This document shows, one piece after another, positions 32,940-62,531 of a stretch of 64,000 bases of DNA. The notes beneath the pieces were generated by a model, which was not told where the DNA came from, did no database searches, and saw only the letters and a list, made by a program, of their open reading frames with translations. This DNA comes from Acidobacteriaceae bacterium (GTDB taxonomy: Bacteria; Acidobacteriota; Terriglobia; Terriglobales; Acidobacteriaceae). Positions within the stretch are counted from its first letter, which is position 1. The number at the start of each line of letters is the position of its first letter. Location of the stretch: positions 1 through 64,000 of the forward strand of contig JAJPKO010000034.1 of the NCBI GenBank assembly GCA_021323655.1. Direction: 5' to 3'. Both the position numbers and the translations under genes were made by a program.

Positions 32940-33016
32940 GGGGACGTAGTTCAGTTGGTTAGAATGCTGCCCTGTCACGGCAGAGGTCGCGGGTTCGAGC
33001 CCCGTCGTCCCCGCCA
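32940..33016 (+). tRNA. tRNA-Asp (GUC)
   Basis: A complete 77-nt cloverleaf with encoded CCA. Acceptor arms are GGGGACG / CGTCCCC with discriminator G, the D-stem is GTTC/GAAT, the anticodon arm is CTGCC-CTGTCAC-GGCAG with anticodon GTC, and the T-arm is GCGGG-TTCGAGC-CCCGT. A TATAGT box ends 14 bp upstream. The downstream operon and recombinase remnant suggest that this tRNA served as an integration site. Confidence 0.97.
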
Positions 33017-39802: not shown

Positions 39803-39859
39803 CTCTTATAGACCTCTCCGATCAAGATTGTTTACATTGCAATCGGCCTGACTGGAGTG

Positions 39860-40380
39860 TCAGGCAACTTTGTACCACAAGTTGGGGAACAGACTGGTAA
39901 TCTCACCCGCGTTCTGACCGACATCAGGAATCATCATTCTTACAACCTTGCTCTGTGCGGCTGGCCTATTCGAGGTCACAGCCTGCGTGTACACCTCAAG
40001 CGTGATTCTGCTGTTCGCGTGTCGTAGAAGCTCCTGTACAGTCTTCACATCTTCTCCGTTGGCCTTCAGCAGCATGCCGAAGGTGTGGCGGAAGGTGTGC
40101 AACCGATGTTCTTGTAGATGCCGTTCGCCCTGGCGACCGGCTTGATATACCGCTTCATCAGATTGTCCGGCCAGTAGGGTTGTTCACCCTTCATGGTCTC
40201 GCTGACAAAGATGTAGTCGTCGGTTGGATGAGCGCTCAGGCCTACACCAACGCCGCAGATCGTTTTTTGCGATGACGAATGCGAATCGGCCAAGTAGCCG
40301 ATGTGAGGCCAAATTCCCGCTCTTATGATTCTCGCCGTTCGCTTCTTCCTGGTGAAATGGAGCATTCGGGAACGAATGGT
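39860..40380 (-). pseudogene. Tyrosine recombinase (phage-type integrase), frameshifted C-terminal half
   Basis: On the minus strand two frames together spell the catalytic half of a tyrosine recombinase. The first (about 40365-40090) contains FVSETMKGEQPYWPDNLMKR and ends RANGIYKNIG. The second (40102-39860) continues HTFRHTFGMLLKANGEDVKT, then VQELLRHANSRITLEVYTQA. The HxxR box and the nucleophile Tyr are intact in the second piece, but a frameshift near 40095 separates them and the N-terminal DNA-binding part is absent. This is a decayed integrase at the distal end of the operon that begins next to tRNA-Asp. Confidence 0.88.
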
Positions 40381-40418
40381 GGGATCGAAGCAACGTGTAC
40401 TTCGATGACGAGGATGGG

Positions 40419-42608
40419 ATGAAAACCGAAATTAAACACATTCGCAGGGCGACGATTCTTCAATTCAGGAATACATCGCACAACCTATTTATTGTTTTCC
40501 TATTTGTCGCAACTCTGTTCAGCCGAAGCAGTATGGCAATAGCGCAGTCTGCATCTCCAGACGGCACGGTCATACCCTCCGCATCAGAAATCATAGATAC
40601 ACAAGGTAATGTGTGGACACTTTCGCAAGGAGCGGTTTTGAAGAACAACGCATACGCAGGCTATACGGCAAATGTTGTGAAGCTTGCCTATGTTAACGGG
40701 ATGATTTATCACGAAAATAGCCAAGGCTCATGGTACTGCTTCACCGGTACCGGAACAACGCAATGGGCCGAGTCGACGTACTCTCCCTTTCCCATCTCGC
40801 CGAATGGAATGACTATCCCTGCAAATGCATATATAACCGACTCGCAAGGTAATGTATGGACACTTACGTCTCAGACAGTGTTAGAGAATAGTGTCCCAGC
40901 AGGCTATACAGCGAATGTCATGCTGGTGGCGGTCGTTGGCGGAACAATCTATCAGGAAAACACACAAAACCAATGGTTCTTTTGGAATGGATCAGGATGG
41001 ACAGGAGCGACCAATCCCCTTGCCGCATCAGCCAGTGGTGCCACGATTCCCTCAGCCCCCTACCTGATCGATACGCAAGGAAGCTTGTGGACTCTGTCGG
41101 CCCAGCAGACCGTTCTAAGAAACGGGACCGAGGCTGGCTATACCGCGAACGCGATTCAAATGTCCTATGTCAACGGAATGATCTATCACAAAAATGCTCA
41201 GAATCAGTGGTTCGGATGGAACGGGAATGGTTGGACCTATACCGGGACGAATCCACGCCCCGCGACGGTCTATTGGGGGGCAGACGGCCACCGCGATAAG
41301 GCGGATCAAACCGGCCAGGACAACCCCTACCAGGATGTTCCATTGAGCCAGCAGATCGCGGACCTCAAGAACATCTTCGGCAATACGCCCAACACGATCT
41401 TCTACAGAGCATGGGATAGCATCATTGGACATGAAAGTGACGTAACTGAATTGCAGGCTGCGGGAATTATCCCCATTATCTCGATGATCACATATCCAGA
41501 TTGGTACAGCTTCTCCAGTGAGTCGGACGCTTATAATTGGGCGTACTCACAGGCCACAGAAGCAGTCAAGGCCGCGCCGACTGCGACGTACTGGATAGTT
41601 GGAAATGAATGGACGGATCAGCCGCCCATCAGCGGCGAGATCACAACAACGGCTGGCTCAGTTGCATCAGATTGGACGAATTTGAAGTCTTATCCCTTAT
41701 ACCGCGGTGCGGCTGCAGGAGCAATCGCAGCAATTCGGGATAATATTCCGAACGCGCAAATCATTGGAGGAGCAAGCACGGATTTTTACCGTGCGGGATT
41801 TGCCGATGCGCTGGCGAAGGATCTAGAGAACTATGGAGGGCGCAATTTAACGTGGGACTACACGAGTCTTCATTGGTACGTGGACGTGGCATCCGTGCAT
41901 CCTAACGGCTCCGATGGAGGCAATTTGGGAATGCCGGACGACTACTATAACAACTACGACGCTTACACTCTTCTTAATCCAACTGGAAAGCCTCTGTTCG
42001 TAGATGAACTTGGTTCGAGCGACGGGGGCATTACATTTAACGACGCGGCTGCCGGAAATGCGATTACTGGGTTGATGCAGAATTTTCTGGCCAATGCAGT
42101 TCCATCCTCTTCAGCGCAAGGCATTGTGGGAGGGACGATTTATCAACTCTATCAGTATGCGCCGAGTCAGCAGTCATTTCTTTACTACCATGTTCCCGGA
42201 GAATCGACCACAACACTTGCTCCGCAGGGTGCAGCGGTGAAGAACTGGGCCAGCGCCAATGCAAATCCAAGCACGAATAGTGGTCCGGAATTCTCTCTGT
42301 CGGGTAGCGATTTTTCGGTGGGAGCGCCGGGACAAGCCACAATCACAGTTACAGTGACTCCATTGAATGGATTCACAGGGCAGGTTGGAATTGCCTGTAG
42401 TGCACAGAGTGTTCCGTGGGCAGGCGGTCCCGGAACGCCGACTTGCACTGTATCTTCCGTGCCTCCGATCACCGGGGATTTTCCGGTGTCGGCGACTGTG
42501 ACTGTAGTCACGAGTTCTTCGACCCAACAGGGAGGATGGGTGCTAACGATAACTGGTACTGGAGGCGGTGCCAGCACTGATACCAATCTTAACTTTTCGG
42601 TGAACTAA
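40419..42608 (+). CDS. Secreted clan-A-like glycosidase with three N-terminal repeats
   Basis: 729 residues from the ATG at 40419. A signal peptide ends near SMAIAQ (about 43). Three repeats of about 78 residues follow, each with the pattern TIPSA, DxQGNVWTL, VLxN, AGYTAN, VNGxIYxEN, QNQWFxW. The catalytic domain starts at YWGADGHRD; E397 in VGNEW and E530 in FVDELGSS fit the acid/base and nucleophile of a GH-A barrel. An Ig-like domain of about 105 residues ends the protein. The exact GH family is not identified. A paralogue without the repeats lies at 58446-60023. The repeats are probably a carbohydrate- or surface-binding module. Confidence 0.8.
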   Translation: MKTEIKHIRRATILQFRNTSHNLFIVFLFVATLFSRSSMAIAQSASPDGTVIPSASEIIDTQGNVWTLSQGAVLKNNAYAGYTANVVKLAYVNGMIYHENSQGSWYCFTGTGTTQWAESTYSPFPISPNGMTIPANAYITDSQGNVWTLTSQTVLENSVPAGYTANVMLVAVVGGTIYQENTQNQWFFWNGSGWTGATNPLAASASGATIPSAPYLIDTQGSLWTLSAQQTVLRNGTEAGYTANAIQMSYVNGMIYHKNAQNQWFGWNGNGWTYTGTNPRPATVYWGADGHRDKADQTGQDNPYQDVPLSQQIADLKNIFGNTPNTIFYRAWDSIIGHESDVTELQAAGIIPIISMITYPDWYSFSSESDAYNWAYSQATEAVKAAPTATYWIVGNEWTDQPPISGEITTTAGSVASDWTNLKSYPLYRGAAAGAIAAIRDNIPNAQIIGGASTDFYRAGFADALAKDLENYGGRNLTWDYTSLHWYVDVASVHPNGSDGGNLGMPDDYYNNYDAYTLLNPTGKPLFVDELGSSDGGITFNDAAAGNAITGLMQNFLANAVPSSSAQGIVGGTIYQLYQYAPSQQSFLYYHVPGESTTTLAPQGAAVKNWASANANPSTNSGPEFSLSGSDFSVGAPGQATITVTVTPLNGFTGQVGIACSAQSVPWAGGPGTPTCTVSSVPPITGDFPVSATVTVVTSSSTQQGGWVLTITGTGGGASTDTNLNFSVN
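41328..41612 (+). repeat. 285-bp tract nearly identical to 59484-59768 (inverted)
   Basis: Within the catalytic domain, this tract matches the reverse complement of 59484-59768 with about 11 substitutions and no gaps in 285 bases (about 96 %). Outside it the two genes drop to roughly 70 % or less. It runs from the YQDVPLSQQ codons to the VGNEW catalytic codons. Confidence 0.9.
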
Positions 42609-42900: not shown

Positions 42901-43830
42901 TTGTCACGTTCCTGTGCAGGTTGGATGATCTGTCTTTTTGTCGCAGTTTTCTGCCCAAGCCATACCGCGGTACTCGGCCAGTCGCGTCCGCAACAAGGTT
43001 TTCAGTTTGCAGGTGTATCAGAGCGCGAAGCAAAACCGACTGCGCAGTCAAGTTCAAACGGAACAGGAAGAAGCATCGAACTCCGTGCAAGGGTTCTCCT
43101 CGAACGGGCCTTAACGGAGCCGAAGAAACAAATCGCTATCAGCGCATTGCGGTTGAGAAATCGCGCTTGTACATTCCGTTGTTGCTCGGCTCGGACATCA
43201 TTCACGGCGATCGCACCATTTTCCCTGTTGGGAAGCTGCCAGTTTCTTTTCCCCGTTCCGTGGGGCAGGAGCCGCTAAGCTACATGCAGTTTCCTACTGG
43301 CCGTCCGTGGACAAATGTGGATCTGTCACATCCTCCTGCAACTGGCCGGGAAAAGGATGTTTCGCGTTACATCGATGAGGACAATGCCCCTCTGTTTCCA
43401 TTCGGTTGGGGGCTTAGTTATTCTAAATTTTCGTTTCGAGACCCAGTTGTAAGCAGGTCGATAGTATCGCTCAGCGAACTTGTGTCGGATTCTTCAACAA
43501 CGCAGCAACCACAGCAGGCTGGCGTGGATGTTCACAACGATGGATCAATGGAGGCAATCGAGACGGTTCAGTTGTATATTGGCAAACGCTCGAGCAGTGT
43601 GGAGCAACCCATGGCGAGTTGAAGGGATTTGCGCGTGTGAAGCTGGCGCCCGGCGAAACACGGCGCGTGGAGCTACCATTAGGTTTCGAGCAACTGTCCT
43701 TCATCAATGCCAAACAGGAGCGAGTCGTGGAACCGACCGTAGTCGATGTATGGGTTGGCGAGAATTCCTGGCGAAGCAGCATACGTCGTTCACGATCACT
43801 CCCTAGTAGGGAAGAACCTCTGCGCAGATT
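42901..43830 (+). pseudogene. GH3 beta-glucosidase pseudogene with large internal deletion
   Basis: A TTG at 42901 opens a signal peptide (SRSCAGWMICLFVAVF ... VLGQ). After a frame change near 43080-43120, the typical GH3 N-terminal block appears (GAEETNRYQRIAVEKSRLYI, PLLLGSDIIHGDRTIFP). At about 43225 it jumps directly to the C-terminal region (VGKLPVSFPRSVGQEP, FPFGWGLSYSKFSF). That omits roughly 450 residues including the catalytic Asp. A second frame change near 43615 leads to the FnIII-like end (LKGFARVKLAPGETRRVELP, about 43619-43790). No functional enzyme can be made. Confidence 0.88.
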
Positions 43831-48729: not shown

Positions 48730-51700
48730 ATGCAAAATCCGAGAAGAGCTATTCGAAGGGCTCAGGACAAACTTAACGAAGCACGAGCGCGTTTCACATC
48801 AAGCGCTCGGTACAGATGGGTTTCTGCTCTTCGGGTCAGCTTGGGCTGTGCTTTAATGTTTTTCCTCGCTGCCCATTTCGTCTTTGCAAACGACCAACAC
48901 TCAAATCCCTCATCCATGTCGGGGTATACCCGGCAACTCTGGCAGACTCAGGATGGCTTGCCTGAAGGAATTGTGCAAGCTATAGCCCAAACGGACGATG
49001 GTTACCTCTGGATAGGAACAAGTGGCGGCCTGGTCCGCTTCGATGGTTCACGATTTACGCTCTTCACACACACAAACACACCAGCATTTCGTGCCGACAG
49101 CGTCTTCTGTCTCGCGCGGGCAAGTAACGGCACTCTGTGGATCGGTACCGAAGGAGGCGGTCTCATTCGCTATCGTCACGGCCAGTTCCGCCTATTTTCG
49201 AAGCTTGATGGACTCACTGATGATTTTGTGCGGACCATATTGGTGGATCATCAAGGCCGAATTTGGGTAGGAACAGACCATGGACTATTCCGTGTGAGAG
49301 GCGACCTTGTGACCGCCATTCATCCTCCTGATGCCAAAGATCTTGGATCGATCCATGCCTTGGCTGAAGGCAGCGATGGAGGAATATGGGTTGGTGGCTC
49401 AAAACTCTTCAGGCTCATCGATGGTCGGGCGACTGAATATCCATTGGCAGGTGCGCCAGGATGGCTGGGTATCAAATCCTTTTTGCCACTGCGCGATGGA
49501 AGCCTCCTGGTTGGGACTATTTCGGCCTTGATGCGGCTGCAGATTGCCAGAGGCCACGGGGTGTGGGCCAAAGTAGATGGTGTTGTCGGCACCGTACGAA
49601 CGTTACACGAAATGAAAGATGGTTCGGTTTGGATCGGAACTATCGGCCATGGCCTCTTTGTAATGCGCGACAATCGCTTTAGCCACTATGCGGCGCCCGA
49701 GGTATTGCCCAGCAACATTGTTCTTGGGATCTACGAAGATAGCTATGGAGACATCTGGCTCGGCACACAGGCCGGAATGCTACGGCTCAGAAAGGCAGAA
49801 ATTACGACAGTTGAGGTCCCTGGCATGGCCGATTCTGATTTTGGCAGCATTTATCAGGACCGGCATGGAACCCTTTGGGTGGCCTCCTCTCGACTTCACC
49901 AGATTCGTGCGGGCAAAATAACAGAGTTTCATGTGCCAGGAACTCACGACCTGAAGATTAGGACTGTACTGGAAGATAGCGAAGGAGCATATTGGTTTGG
50001 AACTGAAGGGCAAGGTATTTACCGGATGCGTGGAACGCGTGTCTCCCATTTCACCAGCCAATCTGGCGGATTGGCAAACGACTTCGTTCGGGGATTTCTC
50101 CAGTCTCGGGACCGGAGTGTCTGGATTGCAACGGACGGCGGAATAAGTCACTGGGTAAATGGAAAATGGCAATCGTTCGATCAGCAGAATGGACTTGCCT
50201 ATGGAAGTGGAAGGGCTCTGCTGGAAGATGCTAAAGGCGATCTCTGGATTGGAACAGATGGCGGATTGAGTCACCGGCATCTGGATAAATTCGTCAACGA
50301 TGAAATCACACGTGCACTCGCGACAAAGAAAGTGTGGTCGCTTCATCAAGATGTCGAAGGTGGGTTATGGTTTGGGACACGAGGGGACGGACTGTATCGC
50401 TGGTGGCTCGGGCGGATGTCCCATTTCACCATCTCAGACGGATTGGCATCCGATAGTGTTTACTCCGTCGTCGAAGACACTTCCGGGCAAGTCTGGCTGA
50501 GCAGTCCGAACGCCGTAACTATGGTAGCGCGAAAGGAAATCGATCAAGCGGCAGAGGATCCCTCCTTCCATCCCCATTTCAGACTTTACGGAGCTTCCGA
50601 AGGGTTGCAGATAACACAGATGTTCGGCGGCATTCAGCCCGCAGGAATCCTGGCTTCCGACGGTAAGATTTGGTTTGCAAGTGCGGCTGGACCAGTCCGA
50701 ATCCATCCCGGCAACCGGAACATCAGCAGGAATATGCCAAGGGTTGTTCTTGATGACCTGGACATTGATGGCAGCTCTGTGACAACGGCTAATGGGGCGG
50801 ATCTCGGCACTGGAGGATCAAGGATCGAGTTTCATTTTCATGCCATTCAACTCACTGCCCACAATCGCATACGATTTCGATACCGTCTTGACGGCTTCGA
50901 CAAAACCTGGAATTCCACGCTGCAAGGCAGTGCCTCCTATACGAATCTTCCTCCCGGGAGATACACCTTTCGAGTGGACGCATTTGATGCCAATACCCCG
51001 GATGACCTCACCGAAGCATCCATTGCTGTAACGCGGCGGCCCCATTTCTACCGGACGTGGTGGTTCGCACTATTCTGTCTTATGCTGAGCGTGGGCGTCA
51101 TATGGGGGATCCAGTGGCGCAGAACGCGAAGCCTTAAAGAGAAGTTCGCTGCTGTAATGAAGGAGCGGAGCCGGGTGGCGGGGGAAATCCACGACACGAT
51201 CATTCAAGGTTGCGCTAGTGTGTCGGGGCTCCTGGAGGCACATAGAATTCTGACCGATCAGGGGATCGCCCAGGGCGATCAGTTGCTGAATACCGCTTCG
51301 TTACAAATTCGATCCACAATCGACGAAGCACGGCAGGCTATCTGGGGCCTCCGTACGGGCGACATTGCGGAAGTCAATATTGCCGAAGAGCTTCGAGTGA
51401 TCGCGGCACAACTAAATGCGGAGTTTCAGCTGCCCATCCTATGCAAAATCAAAGGAAGGGGAAAGCCGGTTCAGCGCACAGTCGCCCATGAGATTATGAT
51501 GGTCACACGCGAAGGTCTCTATAATGCAGCGCGCCATGGGCGCCCGAAAAGCGTTGAACTGCTTGTGCAGTTTGACCCTTCGTTGCTTCGAATTATTATC
51601 TACGATGATGGAAAGGGGTTCGATGTAAACCATCCTGGAGTGTCCAAGGACCAGCATTTTGGCCTGGAAGTGATGCGAGAACGAATCCAGCGAATTGGCG

Positions 51701-51795
51701 GGGAGTTTGGAATCGAGACCGCGGAAGGGCAGGGAACGCGTTTGACAATCTCCCTTAAGAACACAAGCCTATACGCATCGCGAGCACAACTATGA
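48730..51795 (+). CDS. Sensor histidine kinase with two seven-bladed propellers and Y_Y_Y domain
   Basis: 1021 residues. A membrane segment or uncleaved signal (about 37-55) puts the following region in the periplasm. About 13-14 'two-component regulator propeller' blades (pattern DGxLWIGTxGGL) span residues 75-640, then a Y_Y_Y Ig-like domain (about 700-770), a transmembrane helix (about 778-800) and a cytoplasmic HisKA_3/HATPase core. The phosphoacceptor is H821 in AGEIHDT, and the N and G boxes are GLYNAARHGR and DDGKGF/GLEVMRERI. This architecture senses extracellular carbohydrate in related systems. Its stop overlaps the response-regulator ATG. Confidence 0.93.
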   Translation: MQNPRRAIRRAQDKLNEARARFTSSARYRWVSALRVSLGCALMFFLAAHFVFANDQHSNPSSMSGYTRQLWQTQDGLPEGIVQAIAQTDDGYLWIGTSGGLVRFDGSRFTLFTHTNTPAFRADSVFCLARASNGTLWIGTEGGGLIRYRHGQFRLFSKLDGLTDDFVRTILVDHQGRIWVGTDHGLFRVRGDLVTAIHPPDAKDLGSIHALAEGSDGGIWVGGSKLFRLIDGRATEYPLAGAPGWLGIKSFLPLRDGSLLVGTISALMRLQIARGHGVWAKVDGVVGTVRTLHEMKDGSVWIGTIGHGLFVMRDNRFSHYAAPEVLPSNIVLGIYEDSYGDIWLGTQAGMLRLRKAEITTVEVPGMADSDFGSIYQDRHGTLWVASSRLHQIRAGKITEFHVPGTHDLKIRTVLEDSEGAYWFGTEGQGIYRMRGTRVSHFTSQSGGLANDFVRGFLQSRDRSVWIATDGGISHWVNGKWQSFDQQNGLAYGSGRALLEDAKGDLWIGTDGGLSHRHLDKFVNDEITRALATKKVWSLHQDVEGGLWFGTRGDGLYRWWLGRMSHFTISDGLASDSVYSVVEDTSGQVWLSSPNAVTMVARKEIDQAAEDPSFHPHFRLYGASEGLQITQMFGGIQPAGILASDGKIWFASAAGPVRIHPGNRNISRNMPRVVLDDLDIDGSSVTTANGADLGTGGSRIEFHFHAIQLTAHNRIRFRYRLDGFDKTWNSTLQGSASYTNLPPGRYTFRVDAFDANTPDDLTEASIAVTRRPHFYRTWWFALFCLMLSVGVIWGIQWRRTRSLKEKFAAVMKERSRVAGEIHDTIIQGCASVSGLLEAHRILTDQGIAQGDQLLNTASLQIRSTIDEARQAIWGLRTGDIAEVNIAEELRVIAAQLNAEFQLPILCKIKGRGKPVQRTVAHEIMMVTREGLYNAARHGRPKSVELLVQFDPSLLRIIIYDDGKGFDVNHPGVSKDQHFGLEVMRERIQRIGGEFGIETAEGQGTRLTISLKNTSLYASRAQL

Positions 51796-52424
51796 CTGAG
51801 ATAGCCAGGAAGATCACTGTTCTGATTGTTGACGATCATCCCTTGATGCGAGTTGGAATTGCGACGATCATCAATGCGCATCCGGACTTTGAGGTGATTG
51901 GTCAAGCCTCCAGAAGCAAGGATGCTGTTGAACTCTTCTTGCAATGCCGGCCCGATGTGACACTAATGGACTTGAGGCTTCCTGATGGAAGTGGTGCAGA
52001 CGCAATCCGAATGATTCGTGAGGTCGAACCGAGGGCGCGGATTGTTGTGGTAACCACTTATGAAGGTGACGAGGACATCCATCAGGCAATTGCGTCGGGT
52101 GCTCAGGGTTACGTCATTAAAGGTATGCCGTATGAGATGCTTGTGAGCGCAATTAAGAAGGTCCACCGCGGAGGACGTTTCCTACCTCCCCCTGTCGCAA
52201 GGGTTCTCGCCCAACGCAACCCCAGACAAGGGCTTACCGCACGGGAAAAGGAAGTGTTGGCCCTGATGATTGAAGGCAAGACCAATCCCGAAATCGCCGA
52301 CGCACTTAGGATTGCCAGAGCGACTGTAAAGGCGCATGTGGAGCACATCCTTTCCCGGCTCGATGTGACCGATCGAACGCGAGCGGTTGTGGTTGCTCTG
52401 CAACGTGGAATCGCACACCTCTAG
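51792..52424 (+). CDS. NarL/FixJ-family response regulator
   Basis: 210 residues. The receiver domain has DDH at 14-16 and the phosphoacceptor D60 (LMDLRLPDG), with the conserved Thr and Lys (VVVTTYEG, YVIKG). The LuxR-type HTH covers about 145-210 (LTAREKEVLALMIEGKTNPE, ATVKAHVEHILSRLDV). It is coupled to the HisKA_3 kinase by ATGA overlap, the usual partner class. It would activate carbohydrate genes nearby, perhaps through the repeats found upstream of the TonB-dependent receptor and glycosidases. Confidence 0.94.
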   Translation: MTEIARKITVLIVDDHPLMRVGIATIINAHPDFEVIGQASRSKDAVELFLQCRPDVTLMDLRLPDGSGADAIRMIREVEPRARIVVVTTYEGDEDIHQAIASGAQGYVIKGMPYEMLVSAIKKVHRGGRFLPPPVARVLAQRNPRQGLTAREKEVLALMIEGKTNPEIADALRIARATVKAHVEHILSRLDVTDRTRAVVVALQRGIAHL

Positions 52425-53973: not shown

Positions 53974-56900
53974 TCAGAAGCTCAGCCGTGTGCTGATCTG
54001 CATCTTACGCCCACCATTCGTAAGGTTCCTGTCATAAGTTACGTTTGTGCTTGGACATGCCGCACCCAGGGTTGGACAATACAAACTGTAATTCGGATCG
54101 CCAAAGCTCGGATGATTGAACACATTGGTGGCGTCTCCGCGAATCTCCCACTTGATCCCTTCGGCGAGAGCAAATGTTTTTCCGAGGCTCATATCAACAT
54201 CAGTTAAGCCAGGCCCGTAAACGCTGTTGCGATGTGCGTTTCCGAATGTGCCTGCTTGCGGAGCAGCGAAAGCCGTCGGATTGAACCACCCCGTATGGAT
54301 GCTGGGATGTGACAATTTCGGGTTCCCGATGACATTCGGATACCAAAAGCCATCTTGTGCAAAGGACTGGTTATTACTAACTATTGGGGTGAAAGGATTA
54401 CCGCTCTGGGCCCGAACTATTGCCGAGACGTTCCATCCCCCAACAACCGAATCAAGAATTCGAGCATTCAGTCCGCTTCCGCCCAGGTATCGTCTACCTA
54501 TTCCGAAAGGCATCTCATAGGTCACATACCCTTTGAATGCGTTTCGCACGTCAAAACTTGATGGTCCGTAGTTGGCAGAGGGTTTAAATGCGTTTTGCCA
54601 AATTATAGACGGGGCCTGCCATGCGGCGGAATCCTGGTCGTTAAGAAAGTGCGACCAGACGTAATTGAAACTGAAGCTGAGGCCTGAGGTAGAGCGTTGC
54701 GTAATCGACGCCTGGAATGCATTGTAATTTGACACAGCATTATAGTTTCCGCCCCAGGAAATCATATTCTGGAACTGTGGATAAGGCCTGCCGGAAGGAT
54801 TGTCTTGGGGGCCAAGCTTACTTTCGGGCACCTGATTGATATCCGACTGAAACGGAAGGTTGTAGCCATGACTTGCCACGTATGCGATCTCGGCGACAAT
54901 ATTGGGAGTCAACATACGCTGCACATCCAAAGTCCATTGTTCTATTTTGGTGTCGGGCGCATGGTACTCTTGGTACCATGGTCCCTGACCGTTCAGGGCG
55001 TCTGGAGTGTTTGGAATGGGCCCGTAGGGCAGCTGGGATGCCGTATAGGTGGCACTGACCGCACCATTCCCGTTCACCGTGCTCGTTCCGGACAAGTTCA
55101 CCACCGGTGTGATGCCGTTGGTCAAGTCTGATGCGCTTCCAGTTGATTGCAACGCGCCACCCATGGCAAGCCCCCTGCTATTTAGGGTGTAATTGTAGTT
55201 GTAAAGTCCCCAACCTCCCCGCACCGTCGTGTTGGGTAATGGCTCCCAAGCGAACCCAACCCGGGGTAGAACACTGCTCCAGATATTCGCTTCCAGAGAA
55301 GTACGCCCATTTGCGTGGGTTGTGCCGTACCACATCGCTCCAAGCGTGCCCGTCGCCGGATTCAGAATCGTGGGATCGAAGGAGGCTTCATTACCCTTAA
55401 CCTCATTCCATCCATGTTGGATTACGTAGCGGACGCCCAAATTGAGAGTGAGGTTGGGTTTCAGCTTAATGTCGTCTTGCGCAAACATCTGGGGTGTCTT
55501 GTAGCGCCCACCGTATTCGGGAACGACATAAGCGCTCCAATAATTCGAATCGCCCAAGAGAAAGTCAGCATAACCTGCACCGGTAGAACCCGACCCTACA
55601 TATGCGGACGTGTAGTTGCCGGAGAAAGTGAAGGTCCCGCTATTGGTGTTGCCCCACGCAGTTGCATTGTCCTGGTAGATAAGAAATTCCCCGCCGAAGT
55701 GAAGAATGTGCTTGCCTGTGACCAAGGTCACCACATCGGAAGGAGCAAAAGTAAACTGTTTCAGAATTGCATTTGAGGCTGGTGCTATCGAGGCATAGCC
55801 TCCGGTGATATTGAAAGCTGGAAGTGCATCGGCTTTGGCATAACTGAGCCCAAGTTGTTCCGGATAACCCTTCCCAATCGTTTTATCCGCAAAAAAGTCC
55901 AGTTCGTCTGTAAACCCAAATCTTGCCTCGTTGATCAAACGCGGACTGATTGTCCACACGTCTGAAATCTGAGCGTTGTTGTTTTCACCGTCCTGATTTT
56001 GCCACCCGACAGGGGCAGCAAAGATACTTGGACCCAGCGCTGGTGCATCCTGTTCGCTGTCAGAAATCGTGATGCGGTGTTGCGCGGTGACATCGTAATC
56101 GAGGCGGCCAAAATATTTTGTCGTCCAGGATGCTGTTGCCAACGAATAGTAGTAATTGTTCGCCGTTGTGCCATTCGGCTCGAGTACACCAGGGATGAAG
56201 AAACCTGACGAAGGGTGGTTCGTTGCGGTCGGGAAAAGGGATTGTATCTTCAAAGCGACTGGATTGATCAAGGATTGTGGAATCTTGTTTCCGTTGCCAT
56301 ATTCTGACGCGAATGAATGCCTTATCACGCAGGGGGCAGGCTGCGTCGTACCATCGTCTTCAAGGCAGGTGCCCGTCTGCTTTACTACCTGGGTTGTAGG
56401 GTCATAGATTGTTGGGAACCCTGTAAAGTCTCCATTCATCACCTCCTTCGTTGGGAGTGTCGCAAACCCTGTATTCGCGCCGCTATTGTTGTAAGTCCGA
56501 TCATAATTGAAGTAGAAGAACAGCTTATTCTTCAGAATCGGCCCCCCAATAGCCCCCCCGAAGTTATCGAAACGGAGAAATGGGACTTTCACGGGTGCGC
56601 CGAAACCGTAGTTTGCTGCATTTAATGCGTCGTTTTGTAAGTATTCATACACTGCTCCGTGAAATTTATTTGTGCCTCCTTTGCTGATCTGGTTGTACTG
56701 TACTCCACCGATTCCTTGTTCCGCTGAAAAGGTAGAGGCCTGTATCTGTACCTCTTTGATGTCTTCTAAGGGTATGACCACATTGTTTCCTGAGTTGACG
56801 AGGAGAACAGTCGAGCCATCCAATGTAACGTTATAGTAGGGAAGATTTCCGTTGACCGCAGCGCCTGTTTCTTGGGGGTTACTCGAATTTGAGTACGCGC

Positions 56901-57480
56901 CTGAGGCCGAAGCTGCGCCAGTTGCGCCTGGGGTCAGAATGACAAAGTTCTCCCAGGTAGGACCGGAACCTACTCCTACTTCCGGCATCTGCTCCATGGC
57001 CTGCGCTTCCAGCGTAATGGACTGCTCTGCCGTCTCTGTGCTCAAAAGAGGGACATTGTGCGCGTCAACAACAACATTCGCGGTCTCCGACCCAACTTTT
57101 AGCTGTGCGCTCACTGTCGTGTAGCCTGCCCTCACCGTAACTGGTCCGCGGACCAATTTTTGAAAGCCTTGTTTCGAAAAGGTGACCATGTAGTTGCCGA
57201 GTACGATAGACGAAGTGTCGTACACGCCTGCAGCGTTGGTGGTGACGTTTATAGACACGCCGGTATCGATGTTTACGACAGTTACGGTTGCAGCGGGAAT
57301 TAGTGCACCCGTGCTGTCGGTTACCGTACCTCGGATGTCGCCAGAGCCTGTGGTCTGCGAGAAGCCGGCAAGGCTCGAGCCTACGACCAGAAACAATATC
57401 AAACCCGAAAGGTACACCCTCATTAGCATTGCATCCTTGAGCTTTTTCTGAAGGTAGCCGTGTCTTTTCATTACGTTCAT
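53974..57480 (-). CDS. TonB-dependent receptor with N-terminal carboxypeptidase-regulatory-like domain
   Basis: 1168 residues, start supported by GAGAGGA upstream. A signal peptide (to about FSQ-42) is followed by an Ig-like CarboxypepD_reg domain (about 47-135: GDIRGTVTDSTGALIPAATV), the plug (about 150-300, with IPLEDIKEVQIQAST-like strands) and a large 22-strand-type barrel that ends in the outer-membrane signature ...STRLSF. This Oar-like architecture is strongly expanded in acidobacteria. In the present setting the likely cargo is an oligosaccharide for the neighbouring glycosidases. No TonB, ExbB or ExbD gene is nearby. Confidence 0.93.
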   Translation of the reverse strand: MNVMKRHGYLQKKLKDAMLMRVYLSGLILFLVVGSSLAGFSQTTGSGDIRGTVTDSTGALIPAATVTVVNIDTGVSINVTTNAAGVYDTSSIVLGNYMVTFSKQGFQKLVRGPVTVRAGYTTVSAQLKVGSETANVVVDAHNVPLLSTETAEQSITLEAQAMEQMPEVGVGSGPTWENFVILTPGATGAASASGAYSNSSNPQETGAAVNGNLPYYNVTLDGSTVLLVNSGNNVVIPLEDIKEVQIQASTFSAEQGIGGVQYNQISKGGTNKFHGAVYEYLQNDALNAANYGFGAPVKVPFLRFDNFGGAIGGPILKNKLFFYFNYDRTYNNSGANTGFATLPTKEVMNGDFTGFPTIYDPTTQVVKQTGTCLEDDGTTQPAPCVIRHSFASEYGNGNKIPQSLINPVALKIQSLFPTATNHPSSGFFIPGVLEPNGTTANNYYYSLATASWTTKYFGRLDYDVTAQHRITISDSEQDAPALGPSIFAAPVGWQNQDGENNNAQISDVWTISPRLINEARFGFTDELDFFADKTIGKGYPEQLGLSYAKADALPAFNITGGYASIAPASNAILKQFTFAPSDVVTLVTGKHILHFGGEFLIYQDNATAWGNTNSGTFTFSGNYTSAYVGSGSTGAGYADFLLGDSNYWSAYVVPEYGGRYKTPQMFAQDDIKLKPNLTLNLGVRYVIQHGWNEVKGNEASFDPTILNPATGTLGAMWYGTTHANGRTSLEANIWSSVLPRVGFAWEPLPNTTVRGGWGLYNYNYTLNSRGLAMGGALQSTGSASDLTNGITPVVNLSGTSTVNGNGAVSATYTASQLPYGPIPNTPDALNGQGPWYQEYHAPDTKIEQWTLDVQRMLTPNIVAEIAYVASHGYNLPFQSDINQVPESKLGPQDNPSGRPYPQFQNMISWGGNYNAVSNYNAFQASITQRSTSGLSFSFNYVWSHFLNDQDSAAWQAPSIIWQNAFKPSANYGPSSFDVRNAFKGYVTYEMPFGIGRRYLGGSGLNARILDSVVGGWNVSAIVRAQSGNPFTPIVSNNQSFAQDGFWYPNVIGNPKLSHPSIHTGWFNPTAFAAPQAGTFGNAHRNSVYGPGLTDVDMSLGKTFALAEGIKWEIRGDATNVFNHPSFGDPNYSLYCPTLGAACPSTNVTYDRNLTNGGRKMQISTRLSF

Positions 57481-57484
57481 CTCT

Positions 57485-57790
57485 GTCCTCTCTGAATTCG
57501 GTGGGATCCCTATAATTTTGTTCGTTTTATCGTCGAATGGTCTGCGCTATAGCCTTACAACAAAATGCGCGCCACAGTTGCGACGAATGAATATCCTTCG
57601 GTGAATCCATGGAACCTGCATTGATGGTTTCCGGAAGGTAATCGCAGCAATCGTAGGTACTCTGATAAACGCCTGACATCCGCCACATGGCCTATGGCAA
57701 TGCAGGCGTTCACCTGGGTGGATACCTTTTCTTTTCGTCGCCTGATATCGCCTAAAGTAATGCCTGACAGAGTGAGGGAGCGAGTGCGGG
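57485..57790 (+). repeat. Upstream repeat, copy A (before the TonB-dependent receptor)
   Basis: Copy A aligns along its length with 60424-60740 at very roughly 75-80 % by eye, in the same orientation. Highly conserved blocks are ACAACAAAATGCGCG, TGAATATCCTTCGGT, CCATGGAACCTGCAT and CATCCGCCACATGGCCTATG. It directly abuts the receptor gene's start region and so covers its promoter. On the minus strand both copies keep an open frame (AIGHVADxRRxSxYL), so a decayed coding origin is possible. Confidence 0.8.
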
Positions 57791-58445
57791 GCGCGTCGTG
57801 ATCGTACCGCATTGCAGATGCAGATGAGGTTTGCTTCGCGATGCGGCTCATCTCCTCCGCGCTGTAAGTCGCTGTTTCTTCAGGGCCGCGCGTGCATAAA
57901 TTTTCTATGCGCAATTGCCAATCAGCCCGTCAGCGCCGTGGTCGCCACGCGCGCCGAGCCTCCGGCATTTGGGCCAATGTTTCGCAACCGGGTCATCAGG
58001 CGGTCGAAGAGGCCCTGCTCCTGAGAATGATCACTATCGGATGCGCTTCATGATTTCCACTGTGGCCGTGTTCTCGCGATGAAAAGATCTGCAGCCAGCA
58101 AGTCAGGTCGGGTTAGCATGGAGACCGATCTGGATCGCATAAGCCCTGATTGTGAGGAGTAGAAGTGGAAATGCATAGACCATTGCAGTGCACATTCTGC
58201 AGGTTGCCTGGCAAAATTCCAGACGTGCCCTACATCTTTTAGCTGTTGAAGATATTTGCTCATCAATGTGCATGGCCACATAGCGGCGGGAGAGCGCCAA
58301 TGCAGCATTGCTGTTTCATGGGTGATCCACAGTGCGTCATTAGATTCTATTTGTTCATCAAACCTGCGGCGTGGTTCGATGGCTACGCCGCAGGTCTGCG
58401 TTATCTCGATCTCGCCTTCACAGGTAGCAAAGGTCAGAGGTTGAA
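57791..58445. other. Gene-free stretch between upstream repeat A and the glycosidase gene
   Basis: Short frames on both strands are present but none has a ribosome site, recognisable motif or matching codon use. The composition is mixed, consistent with decayed DNA. No transposase, RNA or clear palindrome was found by eye. Confidence 0.5.
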
Positions 58446-60023
58446 TCAATTCACGATGAAAATGACATTGGTATCAGCCGTGATATCCCTGCCGGTCGCG
58501 ACCACCGTCAAGTCATAAAAATAGCCAGAGGTCGCTGGGTCGGCTGAGATTGTGATCGTAGCGGTTACTGGAGCACTGCCCTGTAACGAAACAGGCCCTG
58601 GAACCGCACAAGTCGGAGTGTCGGGTGCACCCGCGTACTGCAGGCTTTGAACGCTGCAGGTCAGGACTATATCCCCGTGATACTCCTTGATAGGCGTCAA
58701 TGTGATCGTCGCAGTCGCTGTTGTCCCTGGCGAGAGCGTGGGTCCTGTGCCACCAGACAAAGAGAAAGTCGGTTTATTGTTGTAAGTTGGGTCGTTGTGG
58801 CGGGCGATCCACTCCTTCACTGCTTTGCCTTGTGGCGCGATCGTAACCGGCCCGCCAGCAGGATAGTTATAGAGGAAATAGCCAGTTTCAACTTGATCAT
58901 TAGGCTCTTTTGGATCAAAAGGCATTTGATAGAGTTGGTAGATTGTTGCTCCTACAACTCCACGCTCAGTTGACGACGGGTTTGTGTGTGACAGAACATT
59001 GTCCATTAGGTTGGTCAACCTGACCCCAGCTTCAACATCGTTTGCCGGAACATTCCCATCACTTGAGCCTAACTCGTCTATGAATAACGGCTTCATCGCC
59101 GGATAAAGCAGAGAATATGCATTGAGTGTAGAGAAAGGGGACCAATTGGCGACAAAGTATGAATCGGGTACCCCCAGATCTCCCGAATCACCCTGTGTAC
59201 CGTCGGAAGCTACATCCATGTACCAATGCAGGTTCGTGAAATCCCACAACAGATCGCGGCCATTATAATCGACAAGATCCGCCGCGAGCGCATCGGCGAA
59301 GCCTAAGGGTGTCCATCCGGTAATCGCCCCTGCGATGATTTTTGCATGCGGATTGTTGTCGCGAATGGCCGCAATTGCGCCCGCCGCGGCCCCTCTATAG
59401 ATGGGATAATGGGGAGCGGTGTTCCAGTCTGACGCCAACTCGCCGAATTTGAGTTTCTCATTTGCAATCGGCCATTGCGAATTCCATTCATTTCCAACTT
59501 TCCAGTACATCGCGGTCGGCGCGGCCTTGACTGCCTCTGTGGCCTGTGAGTACGCCCAATTATAAGCGTCCGACTCACTGGAGAAGCTGTACCAATCTGG
59601 ATATGTGATCACCGAGACAATGGGGATAATTCCCGCAGCCTGCAACTCAGTTACGTCACTTTCATGCCCAATGATGCTATCCCATGCGCTGTAGAAGATT
59701 GTGTTGGGCGTATTGCCGAAGATGTTCTTGAGATCCGCGATCTGCTGGCTCAATGGAACATCCTGGTAGACTCCCGGTTTGTCTCTGTGGCCGTCAGCGC
59801 CCCAGTAGATCGTGCCGGTCCGCAAACACTTCTTTTCGCCATGGCCGGCTTCATTCCCGGGAAAGCAATTGCCGGACCGTGACGATGCGGTGACGGTTTG
59901 TCCGATCGCGCATTCCGCGGCAGTCGCCAAAATAAGAATCCCAAACAGCATTTTCCATGTTCGCGAAAATCGGCTTCTGGCCCCAGCGCGCACTTTTTCT
60001 TCTTTTGAATGCCTAAAATCCAT
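58446..60023 (-). CDS. Secreted clan-A-like glycosidase (paralogue of 40419-42608)
   Basis: 525 residues from the ATG at 60023. A basic N-terminus and hydrophobic segment (about 26-42, ending AIGQ) act as signal peptide. The catalytic domain begins at IYWGADGHRDK and has E179 (VGNEW) and E317 (FIDELGSS) as probable acid/base and nucleophile, followed by an Ig-like domain of about 105 residues. It shares architecture with the enzyme at 40419-42608 but lacks the three N-terminal repeats. Overall protein identity is moderate, except for the 285-bp tract that is nearly identical. Confidence 0.8.
   Translation of the reverse strand: MDFRHSKEEKVRAGARSRFSRTWKMLFGILILATAAECAIGQTVTASSRSGNCFPGNEAGHGEKKCLRTGTIYWGADGHRDKPGVYQDVPLSQQIADLKNIFGNTPNTIFYSAWDSIIGHESDVTELQAAGIIPIVSVITYPDWYSFSSESDAYNWAYSQATEAVKAAPTAMYWKVGNEWNSQWPIANEKLKFGELASDWNTAPHYPIYRGAAAGAIAAIRDNNPHAKIIAGAITGWTPLGFADALAADLVDYNGRDLLWDFTNLHWYMDVASDGTQGDSGDLGVPDSYFVANWSPFSTLNAYSLLYPAMKPLFIDELGSSDGNVPANDVEAGVRLTNLMDNVLSHTNPSSTERGVVGATIYQLYQMPFDPKEPNDQVETGYFLYNYPAGGPVTIAPQGKAVKEWIARHNDPTYNNKPTFSLSGGTGPTLSPGTTATATITLTPIKEYHGDIVLTCSVQSLQYAGAPDTPTCAVPGPVSLQGSAPVTATITISADPATSGYFYDLTVVATGRDITADTNVIFIVN
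59484..59768 (-). repeat. 285-bp tract nearly identical to 41328-41612 (inverted copy)
   Basis: The minus-strand partner of the tract in the other glycosidase gene. The 11 differences are mostly third-position or conservative. The pair forms an inverted repeat 18 kb apart, able in principle to mediate inversion of the intervening DNA. Confidence 0.9.
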
Positions 60024-60423
60024 TGTTGTGTGGGTATTACTCGATGCCGTATGCACACTTCACCTCCAAGGGGATTTGTGATGATTGGGAGTACTGGAAA
60101 CCGCACACAGGTGAAATCCATGGGCACGCCCAGTACGGAGTGGTTGAAGAGAGGAATTTGCTACCATGAGAACCTGGCGTCGAACTGCACGCCAAGTTGT
60201 TCCCATGAAAATTGGAAAAGAGGTTGCCGCTTGCGCCGAAGCCAGTATTTGTTGTCCCCAAAATGTGCGTCCAGGACTTAATTAGTAAGGTGCCATAGGC
60301 GCCATCGTAGACCTCCTTCGTATATGTGATTTCGATTTCGGATTGGAATGTCCCCGTCGTCAGGTTGCGACAACCCAGTATGAACGCCCCTAGGCTGCAC
60401 GTGAATGTCCCAGAACCACTCGA
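60024..60423 (-). other. Gene-free region with an open but start-less minus-strand frame
   Basis: From about 60420 down to a stop at 60037 one minus-strand frame stays open for about 125 codons with a protein-like composition (SGSGTFTCSLGAFILG, later FSNFHGNNLACSSTPGSHGS). It has no ATG and only TTG/GTG candidates without a ribosome site. It may be the remnant of a gene that once followed upstream repeat B. The promoter of the glycosidase gene at 60023 must also lie here. Confidence 0.4.
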
Positions 60424-60740
60424 CTCCTCTCTAGGGATTCAGTAGGCCCCTATGTTTTTTGGCCTTAGCTTCCAATTGTTCGCGCTATTGCTTTACAACA
60501 AAATGCGCGTCACATGTTGCCACGACTGAATATCCTTCGGTAAAACCATGGAACCTGCATGGGAGGTCTCTGGAAGGAAATCGCGACAATGGTAGGTACC
60601 CTGAGAAACGCCTGGCATCCGCCACATGGCCTATGGCAATCCGGTTGCGCACTTGGCGGACACGTTTCCTTTTAGCCCCTTGGTATCACGTGAATTATGC
60701 AAGCAGGAGCGTGTGAGCGCGGAGCCGCGTCGTAATCCTC
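60424..60740 (+). repeat. Upstream repeat, copy B
   Basis: Diverged direct copy of 57485-57790, about 2.9 kb away, upstream of the minus-strand glycosidase gene. The shared core CGCCACATGGCCTAT is at 60620-60634; copy A has it at 57681-57695. Even the leader close to the receptor's ribosome site (TCCTCTCT) is preserved, so B once stood in front of a similar gene. Confidence 0.8.
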
Positions 60741-60963: not shown

Positions 60964-62069
60964 TTACCGCAAGCGCCGCCGCGTCGTGCCGCTCCAAGTG
61001 CCCGCCTTGACATCAATCGACCAATTTGCTTGCCCCAAGATTGTTGGCCATCCATCATGGTCGTTATCAAAGACCACAGGGAAAAACTCGTTTTGACCAA
61101 TTCCTGAACTACCGCCCATGTCTGTCCATCGATCTCCGATGTACACATAGGTAGTGCTCCGACTGCCTGCGACGGGCAAAATCAAAAGGTTTTGCGTATC
61201 GAAGGTATTTGCGCTTTGAGGCACGGTGCTTACGTAGCGGCCCCAATTCCACGGTCCGGCCAGTTGACGTGCTGTCCAAACTGTGGTTTCGCTCGACTTC
61301 CAACCGTCTGTATCTGACGCGAATAAGAAATACCGGGACCCGATCCTGACCAGATCTGAGGCCTCCTTATTGCTCGGCGAGGCTGCATAGTTCCGAGGAA
61401 GAATCCTGGACACCACAGAATCAATCGCAAGAAAAGATCTCTTGAGCGGGCGATGCAGATTGAACCATTAATTTCCGGGCTATCGTTTGTCAAAGACAGA
61501 TACGCTTGAGTATTTTCGACCAGAATTGACCCAAGATCGCCCATCGAAGATCCGCATGGATATGGATCTTCGGCTTGATATCGAAACGGCCCATAAGGCG
61601 AGTCACTCGTAAAGAATGTCAGCTTGTTTCGCCCAGTTCCGTCGTTATTGTTGTGCTCGGTAAAGAGGACATACTTTCGGGTCGTCTTGTTATAAGCAAC
61701 TTTTGGACGTCCGATCCAGTCATTCTTGTTATATGCAGGCACATCCAATAGGTTCACCACGTTGCCGTGGGAGGTCCAAGTGATTAAATCGGTTGATGTG
61801 TACAGATTCACCTTATTGTTTACGGGACCGGACCAATCCATCCCATACCAATAGAAGACAGAGGCCCACCGCACAATCGTACCGCCCTGCGCTCTAATCG
61901 GCTGCCCTGCCGTATCTAACCAGACGCTATTGTTCACGATCTGTGAGTTATGTTCTCGGGCCAAAACGGAGACAGCGGAATTCGATGTGGTTAGTATTAC
62001 GGAGACAGCGGCAATCACAATTGCGTGCTTTATCGTACAGTGTGGAAATGTAAACATGTGTTTCGTCAA
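60964..62069 (-). pseudogene. GH43-like (galactan 1,3-beta-galactosidase-type) gene, frameshifted
   Basis: A signal peptide (TIKHAIVIAAVSVI ... SVLA) is followed by five-bladed-propeller motifs: AQGGTIVRWASVFYWYGMDW, NLYTSTDLITWTSHG, RPKVAYNKTTRKYVLFTEHN and SMGDLGSILVENTQAYL. Near 61412-61450 the frame shifts; the second frame continues with SRILPRNYAASPSNKEASDL, FLFASDTDGWKSSETTVWTA and GPWNWGR, ending at 60964. Both halves are needed for the fold, so the gene is probably inactive unless the shift is a sequencing error or programmed. The FYWYG segment resembles exo-beta-1,3-galactanases. Confidence 0.8.
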
Positions 62070-62531
62070 ATCACCTTAAATGATGGATATTTCCCGCAGA
62101 GAACGCTGTTTCATACTTTGCGCTTGCGAAAGCCTGCAAGCTATAGTTGCAGGAAAGATGAACCGAGCAGAATTTTAGCCGGCGCAAAACACGACATGCA
62201 TACGCCACATGGCCTATCCTCCTGGAGCTTGTAGTGAAGGAGAGTTATGGTATGGTAGCCGCGGATGTAGCGGTTGCGGCATGTCGCCGCCTTGGATTTG
62301 CTCGCGTGACCGAGGATATGCGGGCGACTGTGGAAGAGCAACGAGACAAGCTCGTTAAAGTGGGCAGGTTGGAATTGAGGGGTGAGACCCTAATGCTGAA
62401 TCAAGATGTCCCTGTGCGTTAAATCTTCTGATGCCAGATCGACCGATTCACCGCTCAACCCAAGATTGTCGAAGTCCACATCTGCCCACCGGATACCTAA
62501 TTAATCCTCTGATTTCCATTAAGATTGGGAA
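62070..62531. other. Gene-poor region with copy C of the 15-bp core
   Basis: CGCCACATGGCCTAT at 62203-62217 is identical to the core in upstream repeats A and B; flanking bases ACATGCATA resemble the ACATC of copy A. It lies 134 bp before the GH43-like start on the minus strand. A small frame at 62234-62422 is listed separately. Nothing else is recognised. Confidence 0.5.
62234..62422 (+). pseudogene. Short frame, possible C-terminal remnant of a large helicase-type protein
   Basis: 62 codons from a GTG with GGAG-like context. VAVAACRRLGFARVTEDMRA and LVKVGRLELRGETLMLN resemble the winged-helix-like end of DUF3320-containing helicase/nuclease proteins, but this is from memory of motif style and weak. 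It could equally be a chance frame. Confidence 0.3.

Follow-up and report, generated by a model that had tools for sequence, protein, structure and literature searches.

A duplicated region of about 315 bases upstream of a TonB-dependent receptor gene in a sugar-degradation locus of an Acidobacteriaceae bacterium, with a possible operator common to three genes

Why is the DNA in front of a TonB-dependent receptor gene present twice in one gene cluster, and could it be control DNA shared by several genes? We addressed these questions in a sugar-degradation locus of an Acidobacteriaceae bacterium, using a window of 64,000 nucleotides (the whole stretch analysed, from contig JAJPKO010000034.1) and the genome to which it belongs. 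The following features define the problem:

57486-57803, minus strand: copy T of the duplicated element, adjoining the TonB-dependent receptor gene on its upstream side (blastn, 77% identical to copy G)
60425-60737, minus strand: copy G of the duplicated element (blastn)
53974-57480, minus strand: TonB-dependent receptor with CarboxypepD_reg and OMP_b-brl_4 domains (Pfam)
58446-60056, minus strand: putative glycosidase (named from GNEW and DELG motifs seen by eye; no family match)
60964-62069, minus strand: GH43-like gene, split over two frames (ORFs and Pfam)

The original prediction had named diverged direct copies of about 300 bp, and these are present. Copies T and G are direct copies on the minus strand, about 315 bases long and about 3 kb apart in the same gene cluster; blastn against the whole 4.59-Mb genome aligned them with 76.7% identity over 322 columns (E 5.5e-56) and found the full element in these two copies only. 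The duplicated upstream region is real. In minus-strand order, the cluster comprises the GH43-like gene (62069-60964), copy G (60737-60425), a gap of 368 bp, the putative glycosidase (60056-58446), copy T (57803-57486), the receptor (57480-53974) and a TPR protein. The three genes face the same way, as predicted, and all copies and cores lie upstream of minus-strand genes. The copies had also been said to cover the upstream regions of the receptor and the glycosidase: this holds for copy T, which abuts the receptor gene, but copy G does not adjoin the glycosidase, whose GTG start at 60056 lies 368 bp beyond the downstream end of the copy. Both copies are placed upstream of genes in the direction of transcription, as in a duplicated cis-regulatory region, for copy G with this gap.

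The downstream ends of the two copies, and the DNA that adjoins them, involve three further features:

57486-57493, minus strand: Shine-Dalgarno-like AGAGAGGA, separated by 5 nt from the ATG at 57480 (sequence)
60390-60419, minus strand: 9-codon ORF opening with GTG, positioned behind copy G as the receptor start codon is behind copy T (sequence)
60037-60438, minus strand: 133-codon open frame that lacks a usual start codon near its beginning, situated between copy G and the start of the glycosidase (ORF scan and homology searches)

Copy T ends with AGAGAGGA, and the receptor ATG follows after 5 nt. In copy G, AGAGAGGA stands at the same spacing and is followed, again after 5 nt, by the GTG of the 9-codon ORF (60419-60390), which is probably a remnant; the homology between the copies stops there. 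The 133-codon frame showed no convincing relatives among 61 genomes (after its own match, the best E was 0.008, with E of 1 or less in 22 of the 61) and no family match in Pfam or NCBIfam. Such ends would be the expected look of a copied promoter/5'-leader that has been joined to other DNA.

Within the copies, similarity is not uniform, and a better conserved block was delimited:

57544-57701, minus strand: better conserved block of copy T (maximal-segment permutation test)
60482-60640, minus strand: better conserved block of copy G (alignment with copy T)

The block spans 159 columns with 87% identity between T and G, while 99 of the 163 columns outside it are identical (61%), and none of 10000 permutations in the maximal-segment test gave a segment as good. 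It begins 6 bp before the 15-bp core described below, which thus lies near its upstream edge. The 20 mismatches are distributed evenly over the block (longest run of identity 25, P 0.48); on the evidence of these two copies, the core does not stand out.

A higher identity of this kind need not mean constraint, since gene conversion has likely acted within the locus, to judge from the DNA of two glycosidase paralogues (58446-60056 and 40395-42608). These are 92-100% identical over about 250 bp (59736 to approximately 59487); in the rest of the aligned part the identity is 64-80% just before the tract and 44-70% after it. Synonymous differences amount to 0.11 per site over residues 107-190 and to about 0.8 thereafter, and because they are so low in the tract, protein constraint does not explain it. 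The better conserved block of T and G could likewise be an older conversion tract instead of constrained sequence. It is this conversion tract that makes us take seriously, as a tentative alternative, a neutral segmental duplication: in a locus undergoing decay, and perhaps acquired laterally, partial conversion would have kept a functionless copy alike over 159 bp, and the third 15-mer would have arisen by chance or be all that remains of another copy. The even spread of mismatches within the block, the 9-codon ORF and the open frame without relatives behind copy G, and the broken genes of the locus (the frameshifted GH43-like gene, a GH3 C-terminal fragment and an integrase remnant) are consistent with it. 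However, conversion between the glycosidase paralogues is no proof of conversion in the T/G block, and the third core, in the same orientation upstream of the next gene, speaks against this alternative (0 of 1214 local segments, see below).

The two glycosidase paralogues themselves gave no convincing Pfam or NCBIfam match. The protein encoded at 58446-60056 had no hit in Pfam at E 0.001 or in NCBIfam at E 1, nor one in the PDB better than E 0.17, and its name consequently rests on the motifs read by eye; its predicted structure (mean pLDDT 41.6) was too poor to serve as a search query. Its catalytic part had no match in 395 other genomes of the phylum, while the C-terminal repeat-like part alone was matched in 39 of 199 other family genomes, among the matches listed. 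Since neither this catalytic part nor the duplicated element has convincing relatives in the genomes searched, the sugar-degradation locus may be strongly diverged or have been acquired laterally. At one edge of the locus lies a tRNA-Asp gene (32940-33016), of which no att-like repeat was found: no word of at least 14 bp from the tRNA and the bases just after it recurs in the window and the next 11 kb. A fragment resembling the C-terminal part of GH3 proteins (E 0.0004, below the Pfam cut-off) is located at 42921-43622. Upstream of the glycosidase paralogue, at 39840-40360, lies the C-terminal remnant of a tyrosine recombinase, with a PF00589 match on the minus strand (39980-40156). A weak similarity to the element in the same upstream region (40285-40340, E 3.4) was rejected.

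What sets the core apart is the third upstream region, in which it recurs:

57681-57695, minus strand: core ATAGGCCATGTGGCG, copy 1 (exact match)
60620-60634, minus strand: core, copy 2 (exact match)
62203-62217, minus strand: core, copy 3, upstream of the GH43-like gene at a distance of about 130 bp, flanks not homologous (exact match)

The exact-match search bore out the predicted third occurrence at 62203-62217: CGCCACATGGCCTAT is found at 57681, 60620 and 62203, three times and on the same strand. No further place in the window contains the core with up to two mismatches, and none of 100 shuffles reached three occurrences. The longest word common to T, G and the third upstream region is 15 bp, and it is this three-way word that gives the core its special status. 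In controls, such a word did not exceed 11 bp in 1214 window segments (607 places, both strands) or 13 bp in 5000 Markov sequences; the third occurrence exceeds local chance (0 of 1214 segments). Genome-wide, one mismatch allowed a single extra place, inside an ORF read by eye as a flagellar hook protein, and a reversed control pattern of the 15-mer was also found at one place. The inner 12-mer of the core has two other places in the genome, both inside ORFs (the flagellar-hook-like one and one further ORF). In public genome contigs, at least 120 stretches with the core were scattered over many phyla, which is uninformative, as such scatter is expected for a 15-mer. The palindrome within the core, GCCANNTGGC, occurs 4 times in the window against 2.0 expected by chance.

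No extended copy of the element was found at the third site, the shared sequence being essentially the 15-mer alone. The blastn match covers 20 bp only (E 0.195 genome-wide, 0.005-0.019 in the window plus 11 kb), and global alignment against shuffles and genomic segments showed no homology beyond the core on either side: after the core, 109 shuffles and 85 genomic segments out of 1000 each aligned at least as well, and before it 980 and 875 did. The original prediction had placed this core upstream of a GH43-like gene, which is correct as to position (about 130 bp) but not as to an intact gene. The frames 61230-62069 and 60964-61416 match different parts of PF04616, each below the Pfam cut-off, and with this split the third gene looks broken, apparently because of a frameshift or an error in sequencing.

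In Bacteroidota, capsule or SusC shuffling proceeds via site-specific recombination, and an exact short core that stands between diverged flanks at the starts of three genes, together with a tyrosine recombinase remnant in the window (39980-40156), might suggest that the core is a similar recombination site which shuffles or inverts promoters. We consider this very improbable: the remnant is a C-terminal part only, the cores are direct and not inverted, and contig C64 has no other match to PF00589, the tyrosine recombinase family that the search covered. A decayed mobile element, proposed originally, found no support either. No inverted repeats with arms at both copy ends were detected (at least 8 nt, no distance limit), the element has only two copies, and neither a plasmid match for copy T nor a phage match for copy G was obtained; the copies thus lack the marks of an insertion sequence or MITE.

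The prediction had also offered a leader RNA, and a structured leader (riboswitch or attenuator) or a small RNA gene duplicated in the locus appears improbable. A stretch of 71 nt around the core folds better than shuffles in both T (z -3.77, 0 of 200) and G (z -2.30, 3 of 200), but these windows were picked after the fold had been seen and the two hairpins differ, the outer left arm of the strong core hairpin of T being absent in G. The full copies fold on the minus strand like shuffles (z 0.04 and -0.80; 49 and 20 of 100 shuffles fold as well), as do the 150-nt blocks on both strands (minus-strand z 0.36 and -0.50), and Rfam yielded nothing at or near the copies up to E 1. Changes on both sides of a consensus pair, which would favor a structured RNA, affect 4 of 66 pairs, although two sequences provide no real covariation test. 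A terminator-like hairpin is present in copy T (57585-57570), yet none is listed in copy G, and the number of terminator-like sites in the region (5) is at the level of shuffles (4.8).

Least probable of all the explanations considered is a decayed coding sequence, be it the 5' part of an old gene or a small ORF. Both copies have a minus-strand reading frame that stays open across the main block (57555-57929 and 60485-60685), and the lowest pN/pS of the longest ungapped block is 0.62; nevertheless, mismatches in that block are distributed over the three codon positions as 9, 8 and 7, and pN/pS over the six frames ranges from 0.62 to 1.23 there and from 0.49 to 1.89 in the next block, with few differences in each. 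Moreover, the better conserved block contains a one-base indel, and the open frame of copy T has no Pfam or NCBIfam match. Promoter prediction revealed no sigma-70-like site on the minus strand between 57300 and 62700 (the scan covered this consensus, which may not apply to the organism); the only such site in this region is on the other strand and outside the copies.

The prediction had also proposed a genome-wide search for the element and its core, with their position relative to receptor genes. In the 4.59-Mb genome, OMP_b-brl_4 has 68 matches, corresponding to approximately 65 receptor genes after joining of fragments; 64 loci were examined, i.e., the receptor itself and 63 others (one gene at the edge of contig C35 was dropped), with the first ATG of each frame taken as the start codon. 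The element was not found upstream of any of the 63 (best E 1.3 with blastn and 2.8 with nhmmer; for L139, L205 and L207 certain upstream DNA is scarce or absent, and for L162 and L212 the upstream DNA is shorter than 450 bp), and none of these other regions matches the 15-mer with fewer than 4 mismatches. The upstream regions of 29 receptor homologues from other genomes (49-58% identity; the chosen ATG is internal in some, e.g., L234 and L252) gave best E-values of 0.32 (blastn) and 5 (nhmmer), and the element was not found in the one other genome of the genus.

The search was extended to 398 genomes of the family, 256 of which are at least 90% complete. Blastn produced matches in 3 of them, the bacterium's own and two short ones (E 0.008 and 0.001), rejected as chance, that lie inside ORFs, one LarE-like by eye. 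A sequence model of the block gave, at E of 0.1 or less, matches in 12 of the 398 genomes, i.e., its own and 11 weak ones (E 0.012-0.096), in a search in which about 40 matches are expected by chance but stricter filters lose weak matches. When nhmmer was applied to the 11 preselected loci, L274 and L278 reached E 1.5e-5 and 2.8e-4, values valid for about 33 kb only and of about 1 or more once scaled to the genomes searched. The match in L274 is intergenic, and the ORF that begins about 270 bp downstream of it is not receptor-like by eye; in most of the other weak loci the match falls inside ORFs, also read by eye. All 11 were rejected as chance, L274 with the least certainty. No convincing relative was thus detected in the 397 other genomes of the family, and the element appears so far to be present in this bacterium only. 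Accordingly, its conservation rests on two paralogous copies, and what might point beyond the history of the duplication is the block (87% identity against 61% in its flanks, with conversion possible) and the third core. Nothing on this duplicated element was found in the literature at the level of titles and the openings of abstracts.

A shared regulatory region, also put forward in the original prediction, is the best remaining reading, the leader RNA, coding and mobile-element alternatives being unsupported. We estimate at roughly 0.5 the probability that the element is the promoter/5'-leader of the receptor gene, duplicated and carrying a possible operator common to three genes. The promoter/5'-leader of the TonB-dependent receptor would have been copied once within the locus, copy T presumably being the older, and a second transcription unit, at present that of the putative glycosidase, would as a result start behind the same control DNA. 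The core would most likely be an operator for a locus regulator, and the lone core upstream of the GH43-like gene would let the receptor and the enzymes be induced together. This reading is favored by the 77% identity of the copies with their 87% block, by the end of T at AGAGAGGA before the ATG with the same spacing in G, by the three cores upstream of same-strand genes while the other inner 12-mers fall in ORFs, and by the negative coding and RNA tests. Against it stand the absence of a minus-strand sigma-70-like site and of a relative outside the genome, the conversion that could explain the 87% block, the 368 bp between G and the glycosidase start, the broken GH43-like gene and the 4 occurrences of the palindrome against 2.0 expected by chance.

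The nearest candidate regulator, by its position, is a two-component pair:

48730-52424, plus strand: Reg_prop/Y_Y_Y sensor kinase and NarL/LuxR-type response regulator, the latter at 51792-52424 (Pfam)

A more specific form of the copied control region, in which the core is the operator of this pair as an undescribed glycan-responsive two-component regulator and was spread by copying of the receptor promoter, giving a laterally acquired cluster its own local three-gene regulon, is unlikely but merits mention.

Most likely, the element is an ordinary kind of shared control region. In catabolic regulons, co-regulated genes have duplicated promoter/operator regions; the locus described here resembles them in having same-orientation copies upstream of genes of one pathway and a short palindrome-like core, but differs in that the promoter/operator role and the regulator are putative and one copy is 368 bp from its gene. 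The SusCD-type polysaccharide utilization loci of Bacteroidota, with their hybrid or two-component sensors, similarly combine a TonB-dependent receptor, glycoside hydrolases and a Reg_prop/Y_Y_Y sensor in one locus. Unlike these, the present locus has no SusD-like protein among the ORFs scanned, its receptor is of the CarboxypepD_reg plus OMP_b-brl_4 type, and the kinase and the NarL-type regulator are separate proteins.

Should the copied control region prove to be the wrong reading, the locus would illustrate, on a small scale, how duplication and gene conversion act while a sugar-degradation cluster decays. If it is right, the core would supply a Reg_prop/NarL-type system with a defined operator candidate, in a host whose genome carries about 65 such receptor genes with regulation that is hard to predict from sequence.
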